DNA of 64,000 nucleotides. It comes from a bacterium (GTDB taxonomy: Bacteria > JAMCPX01). The notes beneath the pieces were generated by a model, which was not told where the DNA came from, made no database searches, and was given only the letters and a program-made list of their open reading frames with translations. Shown here piece by piece: positions 1,604 through 61,994 of the stretch; the first letter of the stretch is position 1, and each line of letters begins with the position of its first letter. The stretch spans positions 1 through 64,000 of the forward strand of contig JAJYLN010000011.1 in the NCBI GenBank assembly GCA_021787665.1, read 5' to 3'. The translations under genes and the position numbers were made by a program.

Positions 1604-3547
1604 ATGGCTGACGAAGACTACAGAAGACCGTCACCCGAAGAGCTCCTGAAGCTTTCCCAGAAAGCGGCAGCGGAAAAGAAGCGGGGTAAGCTGACCATCT
1701 ACTTCGGGTTTGCACCGGGTGTCGGCAAAACGTTCGCCATGCTGAGCGATGCTCGTCTGCGCAAACGAGAAGGTATCGACATCGTCGCCGGCTACGTAGA
1801 AACCCACGGCAGGACGGAAACTGATGCCTTACTCGAAGGACTGGAGATCATTGAGCTCCGGGCCGTCGAATATATGGGCGTGAAGCTCAGAGAGATGGAT
1901 CCGCTTAACGTCATCGGGCGCAAACCCCGTCTCGCGATTGTCGATGAGCTTGCCCACACCAATGCCCCGGGTTCTCACAATGCAAAGCGGTATATGGACA
2001 TAGAGGAGATACTGAACGCCGATATTGATGTTTACACGACCATGAACGTCCAGCACGTTGAAAGCCTGAACGACATCGTCTCCCAGATCACCGGCATCCG
2101 GGTACGAGAGACCGTACCAGACACCTTCATCGAATCCGCGCAGGAGATCAAACTCATCGATCTCCCTCCCGAAGAACTGCTGAAAAGGCTCGGCGAGGGA
2201 AAGGTCTATGTCAAGGACATGGCCGGTCTTGCTGTCAACAGCTTTTTCCGATCGGGAAACCTTCTCGCACTCCGGCAGCTCGCCCTCAGGGTCGTTGCAG
2301 ACCGGGTCGACGAGCGGATGCGGGGATACATGCAGGCGCACGCAATCGCAGGCCCCTGGCCGGTACGCGAATCGATCCTTGTTGCCGTCTACGCCAGCCC
2401 GTACGCCGAGAAATTGATACGCTCGGCATTCAGGCTCGTCACCGAGACGAATGCAGAATGGACAGCCTTCTACGCAGAAACAGACCAGCATAAGAAGTTG
2501 TCTGTCCGGGAGCTTGAATGGCTGAACAAGGCCATGGACCTGGCGAAGAAGCTCGGCGCGGGCGTCGTTTGGATTAAGGCCAATGATATCGTTCAGGCAA
2601 TCGGAGAATACGCTGCAAGCAATAACGTGACCAAGATCGTGATGGGCAAAAGCCGTCGTTTTGGCCTGTTCCCGACAATACCTCAAAAGATCATGACCAG
2701 TACGCCGAACATCGATCTGTATCTGATAGATGCCGAGACCGGAACCAACAGCCATCCGGTAAAATTCAGAAAACCGGTCTTCACGTCGGGCTGGATTAAA
2801 TATGCCGGAGGGATCCTTGCCGTTGCCGCAGCATCGACAGCAGCATTCGTACTCCGTCATAACCTGAGTCAGATCAACCTGCTGTTTGTGCTGTTGCTGC
2901 CGGTCATCCTCAATGCCCTGTTCATCGGGAGGGGCCCCTCCATCGTTTCGGCACTCCTCAGTATCATGATCTTCGATTATTTCTTTGTGCCACCATTCTA
3001 TAGCTTTGCAGTTACGGATACCGGGTATTTCGTTTCGTACATCATCTCGCTGTTCATCGCCGTCATCATCAGCAATCTCGCTTATAAGCTCCGCACCAAA
3101 GTCGACTTGCTCAAACAGAGCGAGGCCCGAAACATCGCGTTCTACACCCTGAGCAGGGAGCTGGTTACCGCGGTGAACGTGGAACAGGTCCTTGCCATCA
3201 TCGTACGGCATACCACCCGGATATTTCCCTGCAACCTTGCTGTTTTCTTCCCGGATGCAGACCGTCTTGCCATAAAAACAAAGACACCGGGTTTTGATGT
3301 CAATGACAAGGTGCTTGCGGTGGCGTCATGGGTCGTACTGAACAAGCAGCCGGCTGGTCACGGGACATCCACCCTGCCGCAGGAGAAGGCCACGTACCTG
3401 CCGATGCTCGTCGAAGACACCCTCGTCGGAGTAATCGGTTTTCTGTTCGATCCGCCCGGGCAGGTCATCCTCCCCGAAAACCTTGCGGTCATGGAGACTA
3501 TTGCGCGCCTGGGTGCTATGGCTCTTGAACGGAACAGGCCGAAATAG
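1604..3547 (+). CDS. KdpD-like sensor without a histidine kinase domain
   Basis: Residues 1-245 are the KdpD N-terminal domain, with a Walker A motif GFAPGVGKT at 35-43 and the conserved VDELAHTN segment near 108-116. Residues about 255-375 form a universal-stress-protein-like domain. Residues about 395-500 carry the DUF4118 transmembrane block, and about 515-645 a GAF domain. KdpD senses potassium and turgor and normally phosphorylates KdpE. Here the protein stops at 647 residues (Escherichia coli KdpD has 894), and the DHp and ATPase kinase domains are absent. No kdpE or kdpFABC gene is nearby. Shortened KdpD proteins exist in some bacteria, so this may be a functional regulator rather than a fragment. 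A clean stop after the GAF domain supports that. Confidence 0.85.
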   Translation: MADEDYRRPSPEELLKLSQKAAAEKKRGKLTIYFGFAPGVGKTFAMLSDARLRKREGIDIVAGYVETHGRTETDALLEGLEIIELRAVEYMGVKLREMDPLNVIGRKPRLAIVDELAHTNAPGSHNAKRYMDIEEILNADIDVYTTMNVQHVESLNDIVSQITGIRVRETVPDTFIESAQEIKLIDLPPEELLKRLGEGKVYVKDMAGLAVNSFFRSGNLLALRQLALRVVADRVDERMRGYMQAHAIAGPWPVRESILVAVYASPYAEKLIRSAFRLVTETNAEWTAFYAETDQHKKLSVRELEWLNKAMDLAKKLGAGVVWIKANDIVQAIGEYAASNNVTKIVMGKSRRFGLFPTIPQKIMTSTPNIDLYLIDAETGTNSHPVKFRKPVFTSGWIKYAGGILAVAAASTAAFVLRHNLSQINLLFVLLLPVILNALFIGRGPSIVSALLSIMIFDYFFVPPFYSFAVTDTGYFVSYIISLFIAVIISNLAYKLRTKVDLLKQSEARNIAFYTLSRELVTAVNVEQVLAIIVRHTTRIFPCNLAVFFPDADRLAIKTKTPGFDVNDKVLAVASWVVLNKQPAGHGTSTLPQEKATYLPMLVEDTLVGVIGFLFDPPGQVILPENLAVMETIARLGAMALERNRPK

Positions 3548-51706: not shown

Positions 51707-54700
51707 TCAATGCAGGACGATTTCCTTTACATGGTTGTTCAGGGTATCGGAGACGAACAGGTTCCCGCTCCCGTCGAAGGCGATGCCGTACGGGGAATCG
51801 ATCCGAGCGAACGGAAGCATGGCGCCATCGGTGCCTATCTGATAGATCATAGCTGCGGATTGGTCTGCGACGTACAGACGGTGCAGGCCATCGAGTGCTA
51901 TGCCGATGGGCAGGCCCAGCCCGGATACGTACACGCTGACGCCGCTGCCTTGTACCACCTTTGCAATGGCCCCGCTCGAGCTGTTCGCAATATACAGGTT
52001 TCCGGGGGACAGCAGGGCTACGCCAAAGGGCCCGGCCAGTCCTACCGCGAACACAGACACCATACCTGTACTGTTTACCACGGACAGCGTACCGTCGACA
52101 TAGTCCGCTACATAGAACAGGTCGTTCACGCTGTCGTACGCCACACCCGCCGGGCCGTTGAGACCGGACACGAATATCGAGAGCAGACCGCCTGCGTAGC
52201 GCAGGAGCCTTGCATGGGTAAAGTCCGAGGCATACAGGTCGCCGCCGGCATCGAACGTGAACCACGACAGCCCGGTGATGCCCTGTGCAAGAGTCGTCAT
52301 AGAGGACCCCGGGCCTATGCTATAAGCCGCGCTGTTTACATAATCCGCAGCACAGACCCTGTTATCCGGTCCCCTTGCCATGCCTCGTATGCCGTTGAAC
52401 CCTGTTGCGTATGCGCTTGTCGGATGGAGCAGCCTGAAGATCTTGCCCTCGGATTCGCTCGCCACGTAGGGTACGCCGTCCCTGACCGCAATGCCGGTCG
52501 GCGCAGCTATGCCTGTGGCATAGATCAGGGTCTGCCCTGCCGGGGTGACCACCGACAGAGAGCTGCCTGCATAGTTCGACACGTAGAGGTTACCGCTTCC
52601 GTCGAAGGCTATGCCGGAAGGCTGGTTGAAGCCGGCAGCGTACGTCGATGTCAGGGTGCCTCCTGCGTTTACCATGGACACGGTGCCGCCTGCGGTGTTC
52701 GCCACATAAAAGTGACCGGAGCCGTTCGTTGCAATGCCTTCCGGGGCATGGAAGCCAGACGCAAATCCAAAGACCCGTCCGGTCGATGTCATGGTGAACA
52801 CCTCGCCATTATGCTGGTCCACTATGTAGAGGAGCGGGGTGCCCTGGCCCGTAGAAAAGGTAATGCCCCAAAAATTGGGATTCGGCAGGACCTGTTTCTG
52901 GCATGTCCCCATGGCCGAGGCAGCGCCATCGTACGTAACCTCTGATATCCAGGAGGCCTTAAAGTCGCCGGGCGCCGCCACGAACAGGTTGCCATTGAAA
53001 CCGGTCGTTATGCCCGCGGGTGTGATCATCCCGAATCCATTACAGGCAGCGTCAAGGGACGGAACGAAGCTTTGCGCCTTTCCGTTCGCCGTTACCATAG
53101 AAATCGACCCCCCGCCGGTGGAGAGGTCACCCTGGTTCGCTATGAACAGCGTCCCGGCAGGGGTAAAAACGATCCCCCAGGGATTATAGAGGCCCTTTGC
53201 ATAGACCTCGTAGCCATGGTCTATTTTCGATACGCGGTTGCTGCCGAGATCAGAGGTGTAGATATAGCCGGATGCGTCCATGACCAGGCCATGCGGATTG
53301 GACAGGCCCACGGCATGGGTCACGGTAAATCCGGAAGGAGACAGGACCTTGACAATAGTGTCCCCGGAAGTGACATAGAGGTTGTACGAGCTATCGGCTA
53401 TTATATATTTCGGCGTATCGAGACCCGTGATATACGGGGCAACAGTGCCCAAGAGGTCAACCGCAGATATTGATCCACTCCCATTATTAATAACCTTAAA
53501 TGTCTTTCCACCGGTTGGCCCGGTAAACACCATACCAAGAGGCTTGTTCAGGCCCACGGCAAAGGTGGATACCGCACCGCTCAGGTCAAACTTCGAGATG
53601 GTATCGTTGCCGTAGTTCGTCACATACATATTGCCCGCGTCGTCTATGGCGATAGCAGCGGGCATGGAAAAGCCGGACGCAAGGGTGTAGCCGGTCACAG
53701 GGCTGCCGAGCGTGAGCTTTTGGATTGTCCCATCCCCGCTGCAGGCGACGAAGAGCGTTGACGGAGGCAGATAGTACAGGCCCATGGGCGTGCTGAGGCC
53801 TTTATAGATGGTCGTTTGTGTTAGCCCGCCGGGAAGTACCTTTATGATCGTGCCGTCGGTGCGGCTTGCGGTGTAGATGTTCCCGGCACCGTCCCTTGCG
53901 ATGCCGGTCGGCCGGCTTATCGAATAAAAGGTCTTGGTGACCGTGAACCCTGTGCCTGATGATGCTATATCGTTTACCGTGACGACCACGTCGCCCTTTA
54001 CGGCATGGTCCGGCACCCTTACCCGAATGAGGGTGTCGGACCAGCCTATGATGGCCGCGCCTGCGCCTGCGAATGCGACACTGCTCGTCCCCTGCGTGGC
54101 ACCGAAGAGGCTGCCCGTTATGGACACAGCGTCGCCCTGCTCTGCCGTATCAGGCGAGATGGCCCCTACAGAGGGGTGGGTCGTGAGTGTCACGCCGTTG
54201 CTTATGGTGCCGTTTACAGACACATTCACAAGCCCGACCGCTGCGTGCATAAGGTTCCCCACCACGGCAGTGAGCTGATCGTTGGACCACGTCACCGCCG
54301 GCAGGACCGTGCCTGCATAGTCTATCGTCCCGCTGCCCTGCGTCGCGCCAAAGCCCGTCCCGGTGATGACGATCGCGTCGTTAAGCACGACATCCACCCT
54401 GTTTATTTCTGAGATAAACGGCAATACCGTGAAGTCGGCGCCGGCAGTCTGTGCTCCGGAGAAAACGCTCAGCCTAGTGCTGCCGGCGGCTATATCCGGC
54501 ACAGTGGCGCTTATCGATGTGTCGGACCACGCGTTTACCGGTGCAGCAGTGCCTCCGATCTCGACAGAGCCCCTGGAGACCCCGAACCCGGAGCCCGTGA
54601 TCGCGATACAGCTGCCGGCCGGGCCGGCTGCCGGGCTGATGCCGCTCACTGTCATGACAGCGCCGCCCGTGCCCGTGCCGTTATCGGTGCTATTACCGCT

Positions 54701-54814
54701 GTTACTGGTGCTTGTGGAAGGGACCCGGTGTTTATCCGAGCATGCCGACATGAGGAATACGCCTGCCATGATACCGATCGTGCATTGCAGCGTCAGCTTA
54801 CCTATAATGTCCAT
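51707..54814 (-). CDS. Lipoprotein with three IPT/TIG domains and NHL-like propeller blades
   Basis: The signal ends in lipobox MSAC (start 54814 chosen; an ATG four codons earlier is possible). A serine/threonine/asparagine-rich linker follows. Three TIG-type Ig domains (about residues 55-310), each with ITGxxFGxxxG, come next. The rest is about sixteen short NHL/SMP-30-like blades of the form PxGIAxDGSGNLYVSN, enough for two or more propellers. Such proteins are usually surface scaffolds. It heads a two-gene unit with the kelch lipoprotein. Confidence 0.87.
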   Translation of the reverse strand: MDIIGKLTLQCTIGIMAGVFLMSACSDKHRVPSTSTSNSGNSTDNGTGTGGAVMTVSGISPAAGPAGSCIAITGSGFGVSRGSVEIGGTAAPVNAWSDTSISATVPDIAAGSTRLSVFSGAQTAGADFTVLPFISEINRVDVVLNDAIVITGTGFGATQGSGTIDYAGTVLPAVTWSNDQLTAVVGNLMHAAVGLVNVSVNGTISNGVTLTTHPSVGAISPDTAEQGDAVSITGSLFGATQGTSSVAFAGAGAAIIGWSDTLIRVRVPDHAVKGDVVVTVNDIASSGTGFTVTKTFYSISRPTGIARDGAGNIYTASRTDGTIIKVLPGGLTQTTIYKGLSTPMGLYYLPPSTLFVACSGDGTIQKLTLGSPVTGYTLASGFSMPAAIAIDDAGNMYVTNYGNDTISKFDLSGAVSTFAVGLNKPLGMVFTGPTGGKTFKVINNGSGSISAVDLLGTVAPYITGLDTPKYIIADSSYNLYVTSGDTIVKVLSPSGFTVTHAVGLSNPHGLVMDASGYIYTSDLGSNRVSKIDHGYEVYAKGLYNPWGIVFTPAGTLFIANQGDLSTGGGSISMVTANGKAQSFVPSLDAACNGFGMITPAGITTGFNGNLFVAAPGDFKASWISEVTYDGAASAMGTCQKQVLPNPNFWGITFSTGQGTPLLYIVDQHNGEVFTMTSTGRVFGFASGFHAPEGIATNGSGHFYVANTAGGTVSMVNAGGTLTSTYAAGFNQPSGIAFDGSGNLYVSNYAGSSLSVVTPAGQTLIYATGIAAPTGIAVRDGVPYVASESEGKIFRLLHPTSAYATGFNGIRGMARGPDNRVCAADYVNSAAYSIGPGSSMTTLAQGITGLSWFTFDAGGDLYASDFTHARLLRYAGGLLSIFVSGLNGPAGVAYDSVNDLFYVADYVDGTLSVVNSTGMVSVFAVGLAGPFGVALLSPGNLYIANSSSGAIAKVVQGSGVSVYVSGLGLPIGIALDGLHRLYVADQSAAMIYQIGTDGAMLPFARIDSPYGIAFDGSGNLFVSDTLNNHVKEIVLH

Positions 54815-54907
54815 AGAGACCTCCATTAAAACGCTGTATATGCGTTTCGAAGAGGCGTGTCAAGCTTTTTTTTAGGCCCGTGTCGAAAAAGAAAAGAAGT
54901 TATCTGT

Positions 54908-55579
54908 TTATTGACCGTTCGTGCTCTTGAACATATGCTGGATCTTCTCCAGATGCTCTTTCTTGACGATCGCAATTACCTCATCGCCCTGTTTGAAGAT
55001 TGTCTCGCCCTTCGGAATAATCGTCTCGTCGCCCCGATAGATGGAGACGATGATGACGCCTTCCGGAAGGCCGAGGTCCTTGATCTTCTTGTCCAGGATC
55101 CCGGACTCTTTCTGTACCTCCACCTGCACGAGCTCCACATTGCCGCCCTTGAGCTGGAACAGGGGCACGATCACGTCGCCTGCCTTGACCTGCTCTTCGA
55201 TGAGATAGTTGAGCATCCTCGTGGAGTTGATCGTCGCATCAACCCCGATGCTCTGGAAAATCTCCTCGTTTGCCGGGTCGGACACCCGCGCTATCGTCCT
55301 CGGTGACTTGAACATGAGCTTGGTGAGCTGGCAGATGACCAGGTTGGTCGCATCGTCGCCGGTGAGTGCTGCCACGACATCTGCCCTGTTTGCTCCGGCG
55401 ACCTTCATGACCGACGCGTTCGCACCGTTGCCGAGCATGATGACGTCGCCGAAGGTCTCTGACAGGGAGGACACCTTCATCTTGTCCTGGTCGATGAGCG
55501 TTACCTCATGTCCTCCGGACAGGAGGGTCTTTGCGAGATTGATACCGGCCTTACTGGCCCCGACGATTATGATGTACAT
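54908..55579 (-). CDS. TrkA-type protein with TrkA_N and TrkA_C domains
   Basis: Residues 1-115 form an NAD-binding TrkA_N (RCK) domain, with glycine loop VGASKAG replacing the usual GxGxxG, and with LIDQD near 30-34 and the acidic end of the second strand. Residues about 135-220 form a TrkA_C domain. Such proteins gate potassium transporters TrkH/KtrB by binding nucleotides at the membrane. No such channel gene is nearby; the only transporter in the operon is an APC permease. Last gene of the five-gene run, nine bases after its neighbour. Confidence 0.87.
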   Translation of the reverse strand: MYIIIVGASKAGINLAKTLLSGGHEVTLIDQDKMKVSSLSETFGDVIMLGNGANASVMKVAGANRADVVAALTGDDATNLVICQLTKLMFKSPRTIARVSDPANEEIFQSIGVDATINSTRMLNYLIEEQVKAGDVIVPLFQLKGGNVELVQVEVQKESGILDKKIKDLGLPEGVIIVSIYRGDETIIPKGETIFKQGDEVIAIVKKEHLEKIQHMFKSTNGQ

Positions 55580-55587
55580 GTTCCCTC

Positions 55588-55989
55588 CTATGATATCCCG
55601 GGCAGCCTGAGGAGCTCATCGATCGCCAGGCTCGTGGGGCACAGGACCTCGATCCCCAGGTCGGCATACACGGCCGCAAGATTCACGTCGAACAGGCGCA
55701 TGATGACCCGTATCGTTTTGTCGATAAGTTTTATCTTCTGGGATATCATGATGTTCGTGTGGTCGTTGCCGGTCACCACGATCACGAGGTCTGCCGGCTT
55801 CTTTATCGCTTGCCGGATGACCTTTTCGTCCGTGCAATCACCCACGAGCATCTCGATCCCCTGTTTCTCCTCGATGTACATGAACTTGCTCTCGTTCTGC
55901 TCTATGACGAGGACACTGTCTCCCTTCTTGGCGAATATGCTTGCGAGCCTCGATCCCAGCCTTCCGGAACCAACGACGACAACACGCAT
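55588..55989 (-). CDS. TrkA_N-domain protein lacking TrkA_C
   Basis: The 133-residue protein is one Rossmann domain with GSGRLG at residues 7-12, LVIEQNE near 27-33 and VGDCTDEKVI near 52-61. It has no TrkA_C domain. It starts directly after the universal-stress-protein stop. With the next gene it could form a mixed RCK assembly, with one subunit sensing ligands through its C-terminal domain. Confidence 0.85.
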   Translation of the reverse strand: MRVVVVGSGRLGSRLASIFAKKGDSVLVIEQNESKFMYIEEKQGIEMLVGDCTDEKVIRQAIKKPADLVIVVTGNDHTNIMISQKIKLIDKTIRVIMRLFDVNLAAVYADLGIEVLCPTSLAIDELLRLPGIS

Positions 55990-56550
55990 CTATATTTCCT
56001 CCCCTGGTAGTTTGTCTATAATGACCTCGCAGGGCGCCTTCCTCAGTATCGTATCGGAAGTCCTGCCGAGTATGTTTTCCTTGAGCCCCACATGCTGTCG
56101 TATGCCCATGATGATGACGTCCGCGTCCTGCTCCTTTGCGAGCTTGACGATCTCCTCCCCGGCCGACCGCGAGCGTACGATGAGGGAGACGCTCTTCATC
56201 TTGTGCAGCGTCGCGAGCTCCTCCGCATGCGTGATAGCCTCCCGGGCGTTTTTGTCTTCGTCCTGCATCTCCGCGTTCAGCGGCAGGGTCCTCGGTACCT
56301 CGACGATGTACGTAAATATGAGGGTGGCGCTCTGTTCAGCGCCGAGCCGGCAGGCGACTTCTACGCCCCTTTCCGAGTACGCCATGCCCTGCGTGGGGAT
56401 GAGGATACTCTTCAGGGCCTCGACCTCCCTGCGCGCCCGTGCGGCGATCTGCGGGATTATCGGCGGCACGTGGAGCATCCACCACAGCAGCGATACGATG
56501 GATGTAAGGAACACCCCTGCTATGATAAGGCCGAGCGTGGACTGGATCAT
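55990..56550 (-). CDS. Membrane-tethered universal stress protein
   Basis: The start at 56550 overlaps the upstream small gene by four bases. A transmembrane segment (residues about 4-26) leads into a UspA domain (about 45-186) with ILIPTQG at its start and MGIRQHVGLKENILGRTSD as the nucleotide-binding loop, where G-2x-G-9x-G(S/T) is roughly kept. UspA domains bind ATP, AMP or cyclic di-AMP in various proteins. A membrane anchor is uncommon for the family and places it beside the permease of the same operon. Confidence 0.85.
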   Translation of the reverse strand: MIQSTLGLIIAGVFLTSIVSLLWWMLHVPPIIPQIAARARREVEALKSILIPTQGMAYSERGVEVACRLGAEQSATLIFTYIVEVPRTLPLNAEMQDEDKNAREAITHAEELATLHKMKSVSLIVRSRSAGEEIVKLAKEQDADVIIMGIRQHVGLKENILGRTSDTILRKAPCEVIIDKLPGEEI

Positions 56551-56750
56551 CTCCTCCCCCTGAGGTACCGCAGGACGAACCCGAGCCGGTAGATACCGAA
56601 GCCCACGAAGCTCACGCCCACGAGCACCGGCAGCCATGCATGGATGCCCACGGACAGGTGCATCGAACGTATGACTATCGTTGCGCCGAGCACGACGAAC
56701 AGTCCGCTGTTTATCGTCCTGATCTTATCTGATAGCCTTACTTTGCCCAT
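56547..56750 (-). CDS. Small two-transmembrane protein
   Basis: The 67-residue protein has hydrophobic segments at about 15-31 and 37-58 and a basic C-terminus ending in RGRR. It overlaps the permease gene by 26 bases and the universal stress gene by 4. I do not recognise the family. Its tight coupling suggests a subunit or assembly aid for the permease. Confidence 0.7.
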   Translation of the reverse strand: MGKVRLSDKIRTINSGLFVVLGATIVIRSMHLSVGIHAWLPVLVGVSFVGFGIYRLGFVLRYLRGRR

Positions 56751-58317
56751 TTTTCTTCATCTTTTCGTCGCGCTCTTTCAGCGCGATTCTGTACTCCTCC
56801 GCGAGGTCGAACTCCTCAGCAGAGGTAAGCACGTCCATCTGGTGTGCCTCCCAATTCCGCTCCACGCTCTTGGTCAGAGGCATACCGCTCTTTTTCCTGA
56901 AATAGATGTAGTACAGTATGCCGAGCATGACCCACACGGGCCCAGCGATCCTCCCGATCTTATGGGTGAGTATCACCTCAAAAAGCACCATGCCCACGCC
57001 GAGGAACCCCAGGATACCGAGTACCGGGAACTCGACGGTCCTGCCCTTGTACGGCAGCCGTATGTTGAGGGGCATTTTGTACGGTCTGGGCGTGTAGGGA
57101 TCAGAAAAGCGCAGCTTTATGAGTGATATGAAGACGATGAGGTACCCGAGTGTCGCGCCGAATGCGTACATGTTCCCGAGGGTGTTCATGGCCTCCGGCG
57201 TCAGGAAGGAGAGCAGCATCTCGAGTATCCCGATGCCGGAGAAAACCACGATCGTCCTGACCGGGGTCCGGTATCGCGGGCTCACCTTGTCGAACCACTT
57301 GGTGATGAGGTTCAGCTCGCTCATCGAGTAGGTAAGCCTCGATGCGCTCATGACGCCCGAGTTTGCAGAGATCAGCAGGATCGTTGCCCCGAGCAGGGCC
57401 GTGACCGGGCCGGCGAGCATCCCTATGTACGGAATCGAATGCGCGAGGGTCGCTATGGGGTCCCCGATGTGCTGTGCGAAGATCTGCCACGGCAGCACGC
57501 CGAGGCTCAGGGACGAAAACGCGGTCGCGAATATGAATACGGTAAAGATCAGGGTCACGGAGGTCCTCGGTATGATGGTCGCCGGCCTCTTGGTCTCCTG
57601 TGCCGCCTGGGATATGGACTCGAGTCCCACGAAGGATATTATCCCGAGCGACGAGCCGTACATAAATTCGTGGAGCGTGGGGAACGCAACCTGCCACTGG
57701 TGCACGAGCATCGCCGGCTTCCATGCGAACACGAACCCGAACACGATGATGGAGGACTCGATGATGATATCGAAGGCCCCGATCAGCTCGTTGAACAGGG
57801 ACGACTCCCGTATGCCGAGGACGTTCAGCCATATCAGAAACAGGATCATGGACAGCGACTCGAGCAGCCACAGGTAATTGATCCTGAGTGGCCCGAGCAG
57901 GAGCAGAAAGTGGCCCGGCTGAATGCCGAAGTAGGGGAGGAAGAAGTTGATGTAGCCGGCCGACGCTACGGCAAATAGCGCTATGTCTATGGTATAGTCC
58001 AGGAGCAGCGCTGCGCCGGCCACGAAGCCCCAGAAGTCCCCGAGCCCCCGCAGGGCGAAGTAGTGTCCGCCGCCGGCGACCGGGTAGGTCGCAGCGAGCT
58101 CTGTATAGGCGAATCCTATCATGATGTAGACGATGCCAGCCACGGCAAAGGCAAGGCTCGCAGCGCCCTGTGCCGCTGCTATAACCAGGCCGAGTGCGGC
58201 GTAGATGTCTGCGCCGACGTCTGCATATCCCCACATGAAGGAACCCCAGACGGTGATGTCCCTTCTCAGTTCGTGCGGGAGTTGTGCGGATGTAGCTGGA
58301 GCGGTGTTGTTATCCAT
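56725..58317 (-). CDS. APC-superfamily permease
   Basis: The 530-residue protein shows about twelve hydrophobic segments and APC signatures: SFMWGYADVGADIYAAL in the first helix, YPVAGGGHYFA near 85-95 and SFVGLESISQAAQETKRP near 232-249. A charged cytoplasmic tail of about 60 residues follows. APC members carry amino acids, polyamines or, for the KimA group, potassium. Regulators of potassium transporters in the same operon make ion transport an alternative to amino-acid uptake; the substrate is not decided by sequence. First gene of the five-gene operon. Confidence 0.9.
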   Translation of the reverse strand: MDNNTAPATSAQLPHELRRDITVWGSFMWGYADVGADIYAALGLVIAAAQGAASLAFAVAGIVYIMIGFAYTELAATYPVAGGGHYFALRGLGDFWGFVAGAALLLDYTIDIALFAVASAGYINFFLPYFGIQPGHFLLLLGPLRINYLWLLESLSMILFLIWLNVLGIRESSLFNELIGAFDIIIESSIIVFGFVFAWKPAMLVHQWQVAFPTLHEFMYGSSLGIISFVGLESISQAAQETKRPATIIPRTSVTLIFTVFIFATAFSSLSLGVLPWQIFAQHIGDPIATLAHSIPYIGMLAGPVTALLGATILLISANSGVMSASRLTYSMSELNLITKWFDKVSPRYRTPVRTIVVFSGIGILEMLLSFLTPEAMNTLGNMYAFGATLGYLIVFISLIKLRFSDPYTPRPYKMPLNIRLPYKGRTVEFPVLGILGFLGVGMVLFEVILTHKIGRIAGPVWVMLGILYYIYFRKKSGMPLTKSVERNWEAHQMDVLTSAEEFDLAEEYRIALKERDEKMKKNGQSKAIR

Positions 58318-58344
58318 GCTATTTGTTGCTGAGAGCGGCGTGCC

Positions 58345-59100
58345 TTATTCGGACGTCTGTGTGAACTTTGCAAGAAGGGGCACATTGATCTGTATCGCCC
58401 CGTTTGCCTTTGCGCGGTTGATGACGTCCTGTATCCACGTGTCGTAGCCGTTCTTTGCCATAGCAAAGCTGAACTGTAGGTTTGCCTGGACCGCGTCCTT
58501 CGGCATCGAGGGGGACTTCGACTTGTTCCCCATCGAGGAGAGCATCTCGATCTCGCTGCCGTTCAGGAAGACGCTGTCGAAGAAGAGCTTTTTCAGCTTC
58601 AGGGTGAGTATGTCGTCCTTGATGCCCTGCTGGAAGCTGCCCGGCGTTATGTTGTTCTCGCGCAGCACCCCGTAGTATATCCTCGGATCGAACTGGTGAG
58701 CCTTGTTGAGGAAGGCGGGCAGATGTACTATCTCGTCCCGCAGCTCATCGCCCGTCACGATAAATCCCAGATCGTCTGCCTGCTGGACGCCGACCTCGTT
58801 CGTTATGAGGTTCGTCAGCACGATGTTCGGGATGTGCATCGATGCCGCCCGCTCCGGGGTCAGCTCGTGCTTATACTCCTCTGCGTAACGGTTGAGCGTG
58901 ATCCTGTACGTCCTATTGAATCTGTCGGTCGATATGGCCTTGCGGTTCACAATGGCGATGGTGCCCCCGGACATGCCTGTGCCGCAGCTCCTCAGGGCGC
59001 CGAATATGCCGCCGAACCCACCAAGGAAGGTCAAGGCGACAATGAAGTAGATGATCTTCAGGCCCCAGTTGCCGGTATATTTCCTAATGTAACTCAGCAT
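58345..59100 (-). CDS. Membrane-anchored SurA_N-domain protein without a PPIase domain
   Basis: One transmembrane segment (residues about 13-30 from the start at 59100) is followed by an exported part with a SurA/PpiD-type chaperone arrangement: VNRKAISTDRFNRTY, VLTNLITNEVGVQQADDLGF and GDELRDEIVHLPAFL. No parvulin domain is present. PpiD-like foldases hold the same N-terminal region, so this may be a chaperone-only homologue for outer-membrane or exported proteins. The downstream APC gene starts 27 bases after its stop, so they may share a transcript. Confidence 0.82.
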   Translation of the reverse strand: MLSYIRKYTGNWGLKIIYFIVALTFLGGFGGIFGALRSCGTGMSGGTIAIVNRKAISTDRFNRTYRITLNRYAEEYKHELTPERAASMHIPNIVLTNLITNEVGVQQADDLGFIVTGDELRDEIVHLPAFLNKAHQFDPRIYYGVLRENNITPGSFQQGIKDDILTLKLKKLFFDSVFLNGSEIEMLSSMGNKSKSPSMPKDAVQANLQFSFAMAKNGYDTWIQDVINRAKANGAIQINVPLLAKFTQTSE

Positions 59101-59108
59101 AACCATTG

Positions 59109-59114
59109 AGTATA
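59109..59114 (-). promoter_or_regulatory. -10 element close to the SurA_N start
   Basis: TATACT on the minus strand lies 8 bases before the ATG at 59100, with TTGCTT 16 bases further upstream. If it is used, transcription would start within a few bases of the ATG, so the message would be almost leaderless. No Shine-Dalgarno-like sequence is visible, which fits. Confidence 0.35.
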
Positions 59115-59213
59115 GTACGGTAATAGAAAAAAGCAAGCCTTTTACTGCCCGCCGTCCGGCAGCGCATTACGGCAAAAGCGGCGCCGATACCAGTATGCCC
59201 GCGGGAGCTATGT

Positions 59214-59774
59214 CTAAATATATCGCCGCGTTTTGGCAGCATAGGCAACATAATCGGTGCCGAATCTTGTTTTTAGAAATTCTTCTTCTTTCAGGATAAT
59301 CTTGTGGTGGATTACTATACCAAGGATTCCCAGGAGCAAAATGATAATGTCCGCTGTAAAAAGTATGCTTCCAAGGCACATGAAATAAATCCCAAGATAT
59401 GAAGGATTGCGGCTAAATCTAAAAATGCCCAATGTTTTTAACGTTGTCTTTCCGTCCGGAAGCACGGGCGTGTTCGCTTCGGCAAGAGATGCATGTGCAA
59501 TCGCCGACATGACAAAGCCTGCTGCAAATACTCCGGCGGCTGCAACGTCAAAGCTTCCGGGAAGAACGATCATCCTCAAGTTAATACCGATTGCCTGGAG
59601 AAATGACCCGAGCCAGGTCAGTAAAACCGAAAACTTTCCTATCGTGAACAGTCCCTTCTCGACGGGTAAGTTACCCTTGGTTGCATAGCCTTTTTTTATG
59701 GATACCCTTTCCTGAAGGGTGTTTGTCACAAAAAACAAGATAAAGACCGTAACGAATACTATGTTCACCAGCAT
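59214..59774 (-). CDS. Isoprenylcysteine-methyltransferase-family membrane protein
   Basis: Five hydrophobic segments and the C-terminal pattern RNPSYLGIYFM, then EEEFLKTRFGTDYVAYAAKTRRYI, mark the PEMT/ICMT family of SAM-dependent integral-membrane methyltransferases. Bacterial members methylate lipids or unknown small targets. Of 186 residues, normal length. Its base composition is more AT-rich than nearby genes, which suggests separate ancestry. No operon partner. Confidence 0.85.
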   Translation of the reverse strand: MLVNIVFVTVFILFFVTNTLQERVSIKKGYATKGNLPVEKGLFTIGKFSVLLTWLGSFLQAIGINLRMIVLPGSFDVAAAGVFAAGFVMSAIAHASLAEANTPVLPDGKTTLKTLGIFRFSRNPSYLGIYFMCLGSILFTADIIILLLGILGIVIHHKIILKEEEFLKTRFGTDYVAYAAKTRRYI

Positions 59775-59930
59775 GCTTGTTTTTTACTACGCCCTGTACA
59801 ATAAAGCAAGGAAGGTCCTGCAAGCACGCGGCATAAAAATTCGGATAAGCGCGCCGGGGGCAGACTGCCGGCAGACGGGTTGGTTGTGGCCCTTGACAGC
59901 AAAGAGGGGTATTGTATAACATCGGTAATG

Positions 59931-60030
59931 GCAGCTTGCCCGATAGAGCGCCAGGGCGTCGGGTGAGCTACGCGATCAACATATTCCTTACCGATAAAGA
60001 ATCTGCGCTGGTTGCAGCGTGGATTCTTCA
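59931..60030 (+). repeat. Double-palindrome dispersed element, copy 2
   Basis: Palindrome one spans 59933-59969 (AGCT, CCCGA and CGCC paired with GGCG, TCGGG and AGCT). Palindrome two spans 59997-60028 (AAGAATC/GATTCTT and CGCTG/CAGCG). The 27-base linker resembles that of copy 1 at 4824-4931. It lies 11 bases before tRNA-Arg. Confidence 0.75.
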
Positions 60031-60041
60031 ACATAAACCGT

Positions 60042-60114
60042 GCGCCCGTAGCTCAGGGGATAGAGCGTCGGACTACGAATCCGCAGGTCGGGGGTTCAAA
60101 TCCCCCCGGGCGCT
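60042..60114 (+). tRNA. tRNA-Arg (ACG)
   Basis: The acceptor stem GCGCCCG pairs with CGGGCGC and the loop CTACGAA carries anticodon ACG. The D arm (GCTC...GAGC) and T arm (GGGGGTTCAAATCCCCC) are perfect. The first anticodon-stem pair is T-C, mismatched. The discriminator base reads T and CCA is not encoded, unlike the tRNA-His in this window. Confidence 0.93.
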
Positions 60115-60502
60115 TTTATATTTCATATAGTTGCATGTTTTACTGATTTTACATTTCTTTCCAGTATTACCTTAGTATTACCTTTTAAAACGATTTATCA
60201 GCATACGCATTACATTTTTTGAAACACAAACTCTTTCTTTTAACTGTGAACTTCCTCTTGTAGAGCACTTAATACTTAATAGACCCTGGAAATATCCCTT
60301 CTAACCCTCATATTGCCCTGTCCATGGCCTTTTATGAGGGAGATCATCTAACCATATACCTTGTTAGTATCATTGCTCTTGGATTGTCACTAGGAAAGCA
60401 GGGAACTAATAATCGGGGTGAAGCTCAGAATTAGTGATTTTAGTTACCTGTTAAATGTCCTACTGCATTTTTTTACATAGGGTAGGCGTACCAGTCATGT
60501 TG
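60115..60502. other. AT-rich gene-free stretch after tRNA-Arg
   Basis: Base composition drops sharply from the GC-rich surroundings. AGTATTACCTT occurs twice within 25 bases (about 60160-60182). I see no gene, and no second copy of the tRNA 3' end to mark an attachment site. It looks like the remains of inserted DNA at the tRNA. Confidence 0.5.
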
Positions 60503-60925
60503 TCACAGACGGGACTCAAGTTCTTTTGCTGTTACATAGGGAACACCTCTGTCCAGCTTTATATTTTTACTACCCCCTGTAGCTCCTCGCCATTCTTTGG
60601 GAAAGTTCCAGATATTAAATCGTTCATCTGGGTACGTATCATAGCCAAGGTCGTCCCAGCTTAAACAATGAGCGAGGTGTGAAATCGCTGTCCTTTTCCC
60701 TGTGTTAATGTCCATATCAGTATCGAGGTACAAATTGTGTGCTGCCGTGATGGCACCAGTGAGAAAGTTCGCTGCTTGGATTCCCATAAAAGACCGAGAG
60801 TCTGCTTTTCTTACTTTTTTAAGAACACCTTTATTTTCAAGGTTAGCAAGAAAAGAATTGGATATTTTTTGAACTACCTCGTGTTGCTTTTCATAGTTAT
60901 CTGGATGGTTGTCATAGTAAACCAC
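60503..60925 (-). pseudogene. 5'-truncated DUF3800-type gene
   Basis: The frame encodes VYYDNHP, then GIQAANFLTGAI, matching the C-terminal half of DUF3800 proteins (RNase H-like fold, often in mobile elements). The usual N-terminal YIDESG motif is missing and a stop codon at about 60960 closes the frame. It is AT-rich like the stretch beside it and lies inside the presumed insert next to tRNA-Arg. Confidence 0.55.
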
Positions 60926-60983
60926 ATACTCACCCGGTCGAACTTTAAATAGCCCCTATTTTATTTCGGGCGTCTATGCAGGG

Positions 60984-61994
60984 CTAAAAGGTGTATTGGA
61001 CACCGAGGATCCAGAAGATATCCATGCGGTAAATCCCGGGCGGAGGGGTTCGGTTGTATTCGATGACGTTTGATACCTTGAGGGCCAGGTTTCCTCCCAG
61101 TGCGGAGGTGAGGCTTGCTGAGTTTCTTGTCGTGTAGTTGTCTTTCTTGTCGACGCGGTAATACATAACGAAATATTCTGAAAACCGTACCGCCTTGTCA
61201 AATGCCCACAAAAAGGTACCGGCAGCACGCACGGTACTCCACTCGCCGTCCTTACCGACAAAGTGGTCCTCCGTGAAATACGAGTAACCGGCTTCCACTG
61301 AAAGGGTACCCGATGGACCGCTCCATACCTGGTACCCTACGCCGGGTCCTTCCGCCGTGCGCACGCGGAGGTCCCTGAATTTATCCGTCAGCATCTCCAT
61401 GTCGGCATATCCGTAAAAGGCATCCGTAAAAAGGTGCTCATATTTTGCCGAGCCATAGGCATTGCGGGCAGACATGATCCCCGCGTTCTGAGCATAGTTA
61501 TAGAGGAAACGGAGGCCGGCATTGTCCCATGACGACTTCCAGAAGACGTCTGCCCCTATGGATGCACTCAGGACATGGGCATTGCCGGCTTGCGTATTGG
61601 CACCGGCTGTGAGCGATCCGGACACCGAGCTCGGCGGCGGATTCAATGCCCGAATCTGATTCCAGTTCACCGTACCGGCGGATGCACCCTGCCCGGTTTG
61701 GATCTCGAGATTCCCGTTATTCCCCAGGGCAAATTTCCCTTTGATCGATGTGCCGTTTTTCAGTTGCACGTTCAGAGGTTTCTCCATGGTGATCTTTTTG
61801 ATTGTATTTTTCTTTACGGTAATCGGCGACGAATAGTCCGTGGATATGACGAGTGTTCCTTTGCTCCCCCCGGTAATTTTCCCGGTGATCGTATCGCCGT
61901 TCTTGAGCACAACGGTATCTGCGCACACGGCCTGCGCACTCAAAAGAACCGCCGCAACAATGCTTCCATAAAATCCTAACAATCGTTTTGACAT
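60984..61994 (-). CDS. DUF481 family outer-membrane protein (YdiY-like)
   Basis: A signal peptide ends after AVCA near residue 25. Residues about 26-110 contain repeated VVLKNGDTITGKI-type beta motifs. The remaining 220 residues have alternating aromatic strands and end with GVQYTF, as outer-membrane barrels do. DUF481 proteins are linked to salt stress in some enterobacteria, but no substrate is known. Length of 336 residues. It stands alone after the tRNA insert. Confidence 0.87.
   Translation of the reverse strand: MSKRLLGFYGSIVAAVLLSAQAVCADTVVLKNGDTITGKITGGSKGTLVISTDYSSPITVKKNTIKKITMEKPLNVQLKNGTSIKGKFALGNNGNLEIQTGQGASAGTVNWNQIRALNPPPSSVSGSLTAGANTQAGNAHVLSASIGADVFWKSSWDNAGLRFLYNYAQNAGIMSARNAYGSAKYEHLFTDAFYGYADMEMLTDKFRDLRVRTAEGPGVGYQVWSGPSGTLSVEAGYSYFTEDHFVGKDGEWSTVRAAGTFLWAFDKAVRFSEYFVMYYRVDKKDNYTTRNSASLTSALGGNLALKVSNVIEYNRTPPPGIYRMDIFWILGVQYTF

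Follow-up and report, generated by a model that had tools for sequence, protein, structure and literature searches.

The first 64,000 bases of contig C26 of a bacterial assembly (2.25 Mb, 35 contigs, 92.7% complete), referred to here as the window, carry on the minus strand an operon of five genes, which encode a permease of the APC superfamily, a mini-protein with two transmembrane (TM) segments, a TM-anchored Usp protein and two TrkA-type proteins, one with a TrkA_N (RCK_N) domain only (TrkN) and the other with both TrkA_N and TrkA_C (RCK_N and RCK_C) domains (TrkNC). The operon is best read as representing a hitherto undescribed branch of potassium importers within the APC superfamily, regulated by a split RCK ring and a membrane Usp protein. 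Its product is probably a regulated system that takes up potassium or a similar monovalent cation, built on the APC fold and equipped with its own control subunits; the substrate, the coupling ion, the physical complex and the direction of regulation are those that we infer. It had been proposed in an initial annotation that TrkA-type sensors act here on an APC permease within a multi-part transporter, and the core of that idea was strengthened by a gene order kept across phyla, by the absence of TrkH from most carriers, by nine riboswitches and by KimA-like residues, whereas a KimA descent of the permease and nucleotide sensing by the Usp protein were not borne out. The wider claim is evenly balanced between being right and wrong, namely that the operon represents a new family of potassium importers, spread over at least eight phyla and serving as the main potassium uptake in some bacteria, in which an RCK ring, otherwise known on channels, Trk/Ktr systems and cation/proton exchangers, regulates a secondary carrier of the LeuT fold, joined by an anchored Usp protein and a micro-subunit.

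Gene order and spread of the operon

All five overlapping or abutting minus-strand genes were confirmed, with Pfam domains that agree with their initial description (Table 1), and they are closely packed: the first two junctions are overlaps of 26 and 4 bases, the third pair abuts, and the last gap measures 8 bases by coordinates, for which 9 bases had been given. In the host family, the permease was found at 81–91% identity in six related genomes, and all five genes occur in the same order in five of them (G001, G002, G003, G004 and G008), the copy in G006 being truncated by its contig. Among these copies the permease is one of the most conserved parts (81–91%) and the mini-protein the most variable (47–78%). 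The permease was then sought in 84,980 species genomes and the open reading frames (ORFs) of the loci found were searched with profiles, which resulted in 49 permease loci at 52–92% identity. All five parts stand in order in 17 of them (L034–L037 from the window's own family, L039–L045, L049, L060, L077, L050, L059 and L078), and in L050, L059 and L078 TrkN and TrkNC are fused to one protein of 384–395 aa. These loci fall in about eight phyla, that is, Bacillota, Nitrospirota, Zixiibacteriota, Methylomirabilota, Caldifarciminota (WOR-3), Acidobacteriota, Myxococcota and the lineage of the window itself, as placed by record titles and taxonomy, and single assignments may be wrong as several loci are contigs of metagenome-assembled genomes (MAGs). 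The genes are accordingly not scattered in other genomes, and the recurrence of the same five-gene order in the family and in other phyla rules out that the operon is a product of chance or mis-annotation.

Partial sets were also observed. About a dozen further loci, from Bacillota, Chloroflexota lineages and Armatimonadetes, hold the permease, the mini-protein and the TM-Usp gene without the Trk pair, and five loci (L048, L051, L057, L058 and L063) hold the permease alone, suggesting that the permease is the core of the system and the remaining genes are accessory parts. Plasmid records contained only remote permeases, all below 60% identity and the best at about 26% among the matches listed. 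In Moorella thermoacetica DSM 21394 (L077, 6977–8157), the permease gene is split and lacks about residues 73–194, despite which the riboswitch, the mini-protein, the Usp and the Trk genes are intact, reflecting either a strain lesion or an assembly error. In seven loci from Bacillota MAGs (L062, L064, L066–L069 and L075), where the short operon consists of permease, mini-protein and Usp genes, a second APC-type protein of ~405–442 aa is encoded about 1.7–3 kb after the permease, and in L064 it follows a VanW/G5-domain gene.

The loci that keep permease, mini-protein and Usp without the TrkA set would also suit an arrangement in which the TrkA pair and the Usp protein serve another membrane protein, such as an MthK-like channel or Kdp, and are merely co-transcribed with the permease; the host genome indeed encodes a 2-TM RCK channel (L001). 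This arrangement is improbable, since this gene order, with start/stop overlaps, is found again in different phyla, no TrkH is present and the L001 channel has RCK domains of its own. Additionally, in three Chloroflexota loci TrkN has been shifted to the front of the permease and still adjoins it.

Putative ion-site residues and descent of the permease

The AlphaFold2 (AF2) model of the permease (predicted local distance difference test, pLDDT, 86.3; predicted template modelling score, pTM, 0.86) matched two folds almost equally well, those of KimA (Z 43.0) and of the amino-acid transporter GkApcT (Z 42.7), and fold comparison was dropped as an arbiter between the two kinds of transporter because the scores are tied. 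The residues are more telling. Across 45 orthologues, D33, G35, A36, Y108, D111, E233, N319 and Y384 are invariant, and D37 and D107 are kept in 43 and 44 of them, respectively. A profile alignment paired D107/Y108/D111 of the permease with D117/Y118/T121 of KimA, E233 with E233 and Y384 with Y377; thus, the site residues of KimA in TM3, TM6 and TM10 (D117, Y118, E233 and Y377) are matched by D107, Y108, E233 and Y384 in 44–45 of the 45 orthologues, T121 being replaced by Asp (D111) throughout the clade. In KimA, potassium is coordinated by D36, T121 and Y377, and protons are coupled through E233 (PMC6994465). The TM1 of the permease carries the signature MWGYADVGADIY; it reads YADxGAD in 43 orthologues and YADVGAN in the other two, with D33 present in all 45. 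Amino-acid transporters have a carboxylate-binding motif of the GxIGxGIF type where the permease clade has YADVGADIY, and no such motif was found in TM1 of any of the 45 orthologues. At the positions of D107, Y108, D111, E233 and Y384, GkApcT shows E, Y, A, D and T; the features that set the clade apart are therefore the TM1 Asp residues, D111 and Y384.

Regarding descent, the permease orthologues form one clade of their own (100/99 support) and the KimA-type group is separate (100/100), in a tree with long branches in which the placement between groups is unsure and no sister group is stated. Membership of the permease in the KimA group by descent is ruled out by this separation. The 14 sampled APC proteins, a small and uneven sample, are likewise separate from the permease clade (98/94), so that the permease does not group with the sampled amino-acid importers either.

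Regulation and potassium context

A complete RF00379 aptamer of the ydaO/yuaA class, which senses cyclic diadenosine monophosphate (c-di-AMP), was found by an Rfam search (gathering score 38 bits as cut-off) in front of the permease at nine loci spread over five phyla (L039, L040, L042–L045, L059, L077 and L078), with scores of 71–95 bits and 17–276 bases before the longest permease ORF. Among the scanned loci with enough flank, the aptamer is present in 9 of 12 with the Trk pair versus none of 16 without it, kinship being uncorrected in this comparison. A diadenylate cyclase family is encoded in all nine host-family genomes (9/9). In B. subtilis, this riboswitch class is an off-switch on the importers kimA and ktrAB (PMC5575661), and in the relatives a high c-di-AMP level, which signals ample potassium, would probably turn the operon off in this way as well. 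The same evidence bears on whether the system exports a cation, in the manner of the RCK_C- and c-di-AMP-controlled exporters KhtTU (PMC10284832) and CpaA (PMC6488665), which demonstrate that potassium exporters can be under such control; export is very improbable, considering that the off-switch sits on importers in B. subtilis and that carriers of the operon often lack the usual importers.

The absence of a nearby TrkH/KtrB gene, noted initially, proved wider, as no TrkH/KtrB (PF02386) was found anywhere in the host assembly or in any of the nine host-family genomes. The family is absent from 25 of 30 other carriers and present in 20 of 32 background bacterial genomes (5/30 versus 20/32 with TrkH, Fisher p = 0.0003, kinship uncorrected). 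None of TrkH, KdpA and Kup was found in 10 of the 30 carriers or in G000–G003, KimA-type genes not having been searched one by one; G003 is 99% complete, and one of the ten carriers is Zixibacteria RBG-1 (L060), with its permease gene on a contig of 2.1 Mb. Near the other end of the window lies the gene of a 648-aa KdpD-like protein that combines KdpD, weak Usp, DUF4118 and GAF domains but lacks the histidine-kinase part; no kdpABC stands beside this gene and no KdpA was found in the assembly.

The two TrkA-type proteins seem to be an old pair. In a tree of Trk N-domains, all TrkN and all TrkNC sequences, fused ones included, fall each on one side of a single branch (100/100), and therefore the pair was not put together time and again from unrelated TrkA genes, which points to one ancestral set. 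The nucleotide motif GxGxxG is kept in TrkN of the window (GSGRLG), the middle Gly is changed in TrkNC (GASKAG), and many relatives have GGGKxG in TrkNC and GCSRxG in TrkN; on these motifs, one of the two sites is often degenerate. Among the closest structures solved are TM1088A and TM1088B of Thermotoga maritima, and the PDB matches of TrkNC include TM1088B and TrkA of V. parahaemolyticus. RCK_C domains of KtrA and KhtT bind c-di-AMP (PMC10284832).

The Usp protein has an N-terminal hydrophobic segment, followed in many relatives by WWMLHxPP. The ATP motif GX2GX9G(S/T) was found in none of 29 relatives, two control Usp sequences both being positive, and its absence argues against an ATP-binding Usp of the UspFG type and leaves the earlier suggestion of a nucleotide sensor unsupported by motif. 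The Usp domain of KdpD binds c-di-AMP (PMC4686210), and the TM-Usp is presumably a regulatory subunit. Mini-protein relatives adjoin the permease in 35 loci, most with two TM segments by hydropathy and with only G22, G45 and R55 invariant among 29 aligned, as would suit a small membrane subunit of no known family.

In a possible mechanism, the LeuT-fold permease would move the ion, probably in company with protons like KimA, and acidic residues of TM1 (D33/D37), TM3 (D107 and D111) and TM6 (E233), together with Y384 in TM10, would handle it. The two TrkA-type proteins would form a hetero-oligomeric RCK ring beneath the permease, split as in Thermotoga TM1088A/B, and tune permease activity in response to adenine nucleotides, NAD(H) or c-di-AMP, with the membrane-tethered Usp protein as a second regulatory subunit and the mini-protein as a small membrane subunit that may stabilize or link the parts.

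Several observations weigh against a potassium importer. The permease sequence matches amino-acid transporters (TIGR00909, 181 bits; GkApcT, E 1.6e-28) more closely than it does KimA (E 0.002), the fold cannot separate the two, and the TM1 pairing is ambiguous, as D33 or D37 stands opposite D36 of KimA depending on the alignment (the global profile alignment misplaced TM1 and the local one excluded it). Amino-acid transporter and cell-wall genes, too, lie behind c-di-AMP riboswitches of this class (PMC7266159), and in the window itself no RF00379 was found at the gathering score, nor among matches to E 5 in 57800–61000, and a riboswitch on the window's own copy was dropped. In some carriers the permease stands alone or has only the Usp gene beside it, and many carriers are incomplete and mutually related MAGs, so that the p-values overstate independence. 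Finally, the MthK-like channel of the host (L001) is another possible potassium route; because of this channel, and as KimA-type genes were not searched individually, the missing-transporter pattern is no more than suggestive of a potassium role.

Thus the permease might instead transport amino acids, polyamines or other organic solutes, its tie to osmotic or potassium control running only through the regulators and the riboswitch. Besides the closest curated families and best sequence matches, which are amino-acid transporters, and the riboswitch class shared with their genes, fusions of APC with Usp and of APC with EIIA and TrkA_C exist among amino-acid-permease-like proteins. Such a solute is nonetheless unlikely, if clearly less so than either alternative above, given that the GSGIF-type carboxylate-binding motif of TM1 has become GADIY, with the Asp in 43 of 45 orthologues, that the KimA-site residues are invariant, that the permease clade is separate and that TrkH is missing in most carriers.

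A potassium importer would matter in several respects. Every cell needs potassium, though several carrier genomes lack all three main uptake families, and the operon is a concrete uptake candidate hidden by its current annotation as 'amino acid permease'. If the reading is true, RCK rings and Usp subunits could be attached to a rocking-bundle carrier and not to channels alone. Thermophilic members, such as those of the Moorella lineage, could suit structure work.

Among the neighbouring genes, a SurA-N-like gene precedes the permease, in a position that tblastn of the family loci recovered in host-family loci only; it probably shares the operon transcript, yet lies outside the widespread module. 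Directly downstream of the operon stands a large NHL-repeat gene, whose position is common to the host and G001 only.

Table 1. Coordinates of the operon genes and of other features in the window
Feature	Coordinates	Strand	Description
APC-superfamily permease	58317-56725	-	530 aa; Pfam AA_permease_2 1.3e-35
Two-TM mini-protein	56750-56547	-	67 aa; overlaps permease by 26 bases; no Pfam match
TM-anchored Usp	56550-55990	-	186 aa; 4-base overlap with mini-protein; Pfam Usp 4.4e-23, residues 47-178
TrkN	55989-55588	-	133 aa; abuts Usp; Pfam TrkA_N 7e-21
TrkNC	55579-54908	-	223 aa; TrkA_N 1e-27, TrkA_C 1e-17
SurA-N-like gene	58345-59136	-	27 bases upstream of permease; Pfam SurA_N_3 3.6e-34
NHL-repeat gene	51710-54826	-	virginiamycin-B-lyase-like beta-propeller with TIG domains
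KdpD-like protein	1604-3547	+	

Comparison with known systems

Literature searches for the five-gene set found no description of it, though it may figure in riboswitch gene lists as an amino-acid transporter operon. The initial statement that the exact set is undescribed holds to this extent, and precedents for its parts do exist in TM1088A/B, in locus L105 and in APC-Usp and APC-TrkA_C fusions. RCK and Usp modules near an APC-fold carrier are not without parallel, while the five-part system, the permease clade and its spread appear undescribed.

KimA (B. subtilis YdaO, a K+/H+ symporter of the KUP family; 6s3k/8b70/8b71) has the common LeuT/APC fold, keeps D117/Y118, E233 and Y377 at positions paired with the permease and is encoded under the same riboswitch class; however, it belongs to a separate clade, and the operon permease lacks its large C-terminal cytoplasmic domain, has its regulators as separate genes and bears Asp in place of T121. 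GkApcT (a bacterial cationic amino-acid transporter; 5oqt/6f34) is the best PDB sequence match and has the same fold, but it lacks equivalents of the TM1 Asp, D111 and Y384 and falls in another clade. The closest parallel to the Trk pair is TM1088A/TM1088B (PDB 3l4b), likewise a TrkA_N-only and a TrkA_N+C protein, of 143 and 218 aa versus 133 and 223 aa here. These form a two-subunit octameric ring with TrkH (TM1089) as partner (PMC4380455), in contrast to the APC permease of the present operon, whose genome has no TrkH.

Fused Usp or EIIA-TrkA_C domains supply the same kinds of regulatory modules to APC permeases in L030 and L103, as in archaeal APC-2xUsp proteins (PMC3673472); in L103 (205–2250, minus strand), the APC permease, an EIIA domain of the phosphotransferase system (PTS) and TrkA_C are joined in one protein of 682 aa. 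These fusions differ in being single chains without an RCK_N pair and in having an amino-acid-type TM1 (GxIGxGIF or SSGIF). On plasmid PL131 of Natronomonas pharaonis (L107), Usp and TrkA genes likewise stand in a potassium-transporter operon, with the difference that the transporter is TrkH and the annotated Usp has a small gene of its own. On a Streptomyces fungicidicus plasmid (L104, 1520–5648), a gene for a cation P-type ATPase overlaps a pair of TrkA genes and Usp genes lie immediately upstream, making this ATPase another unusual TrkA partner.

Two TrkA genes beside a membrane-transporter gene are likewise seen in Nonomuraea (L105) and in M. tuberculosis, where CeoB/CeoC are accompanied by Rv2690c, which we take to be of APC type. 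CeoB/CeoC, both of them TrkA proteins, have been described as together making up a Trk system (PMC13163235), and mutants of ceoB and of the adjacent Rv2690c have a common antibiotic-survival phenotype (PMC12216072). In Nonomuraea gerenzanensis (L105, 2176–5660), a KimA-type permease gene is divergent to the two TrkA genes, which are full-length, and no mini-protein or TM-Usp was seen there, unlike in the five-gene operon. The L105 layout may show what CeoB/CeoC-type proteins act on when TrkH is absent, and the operon described here may also help to clarify the function of mycobacterial CeoB/CeoC in that setting.

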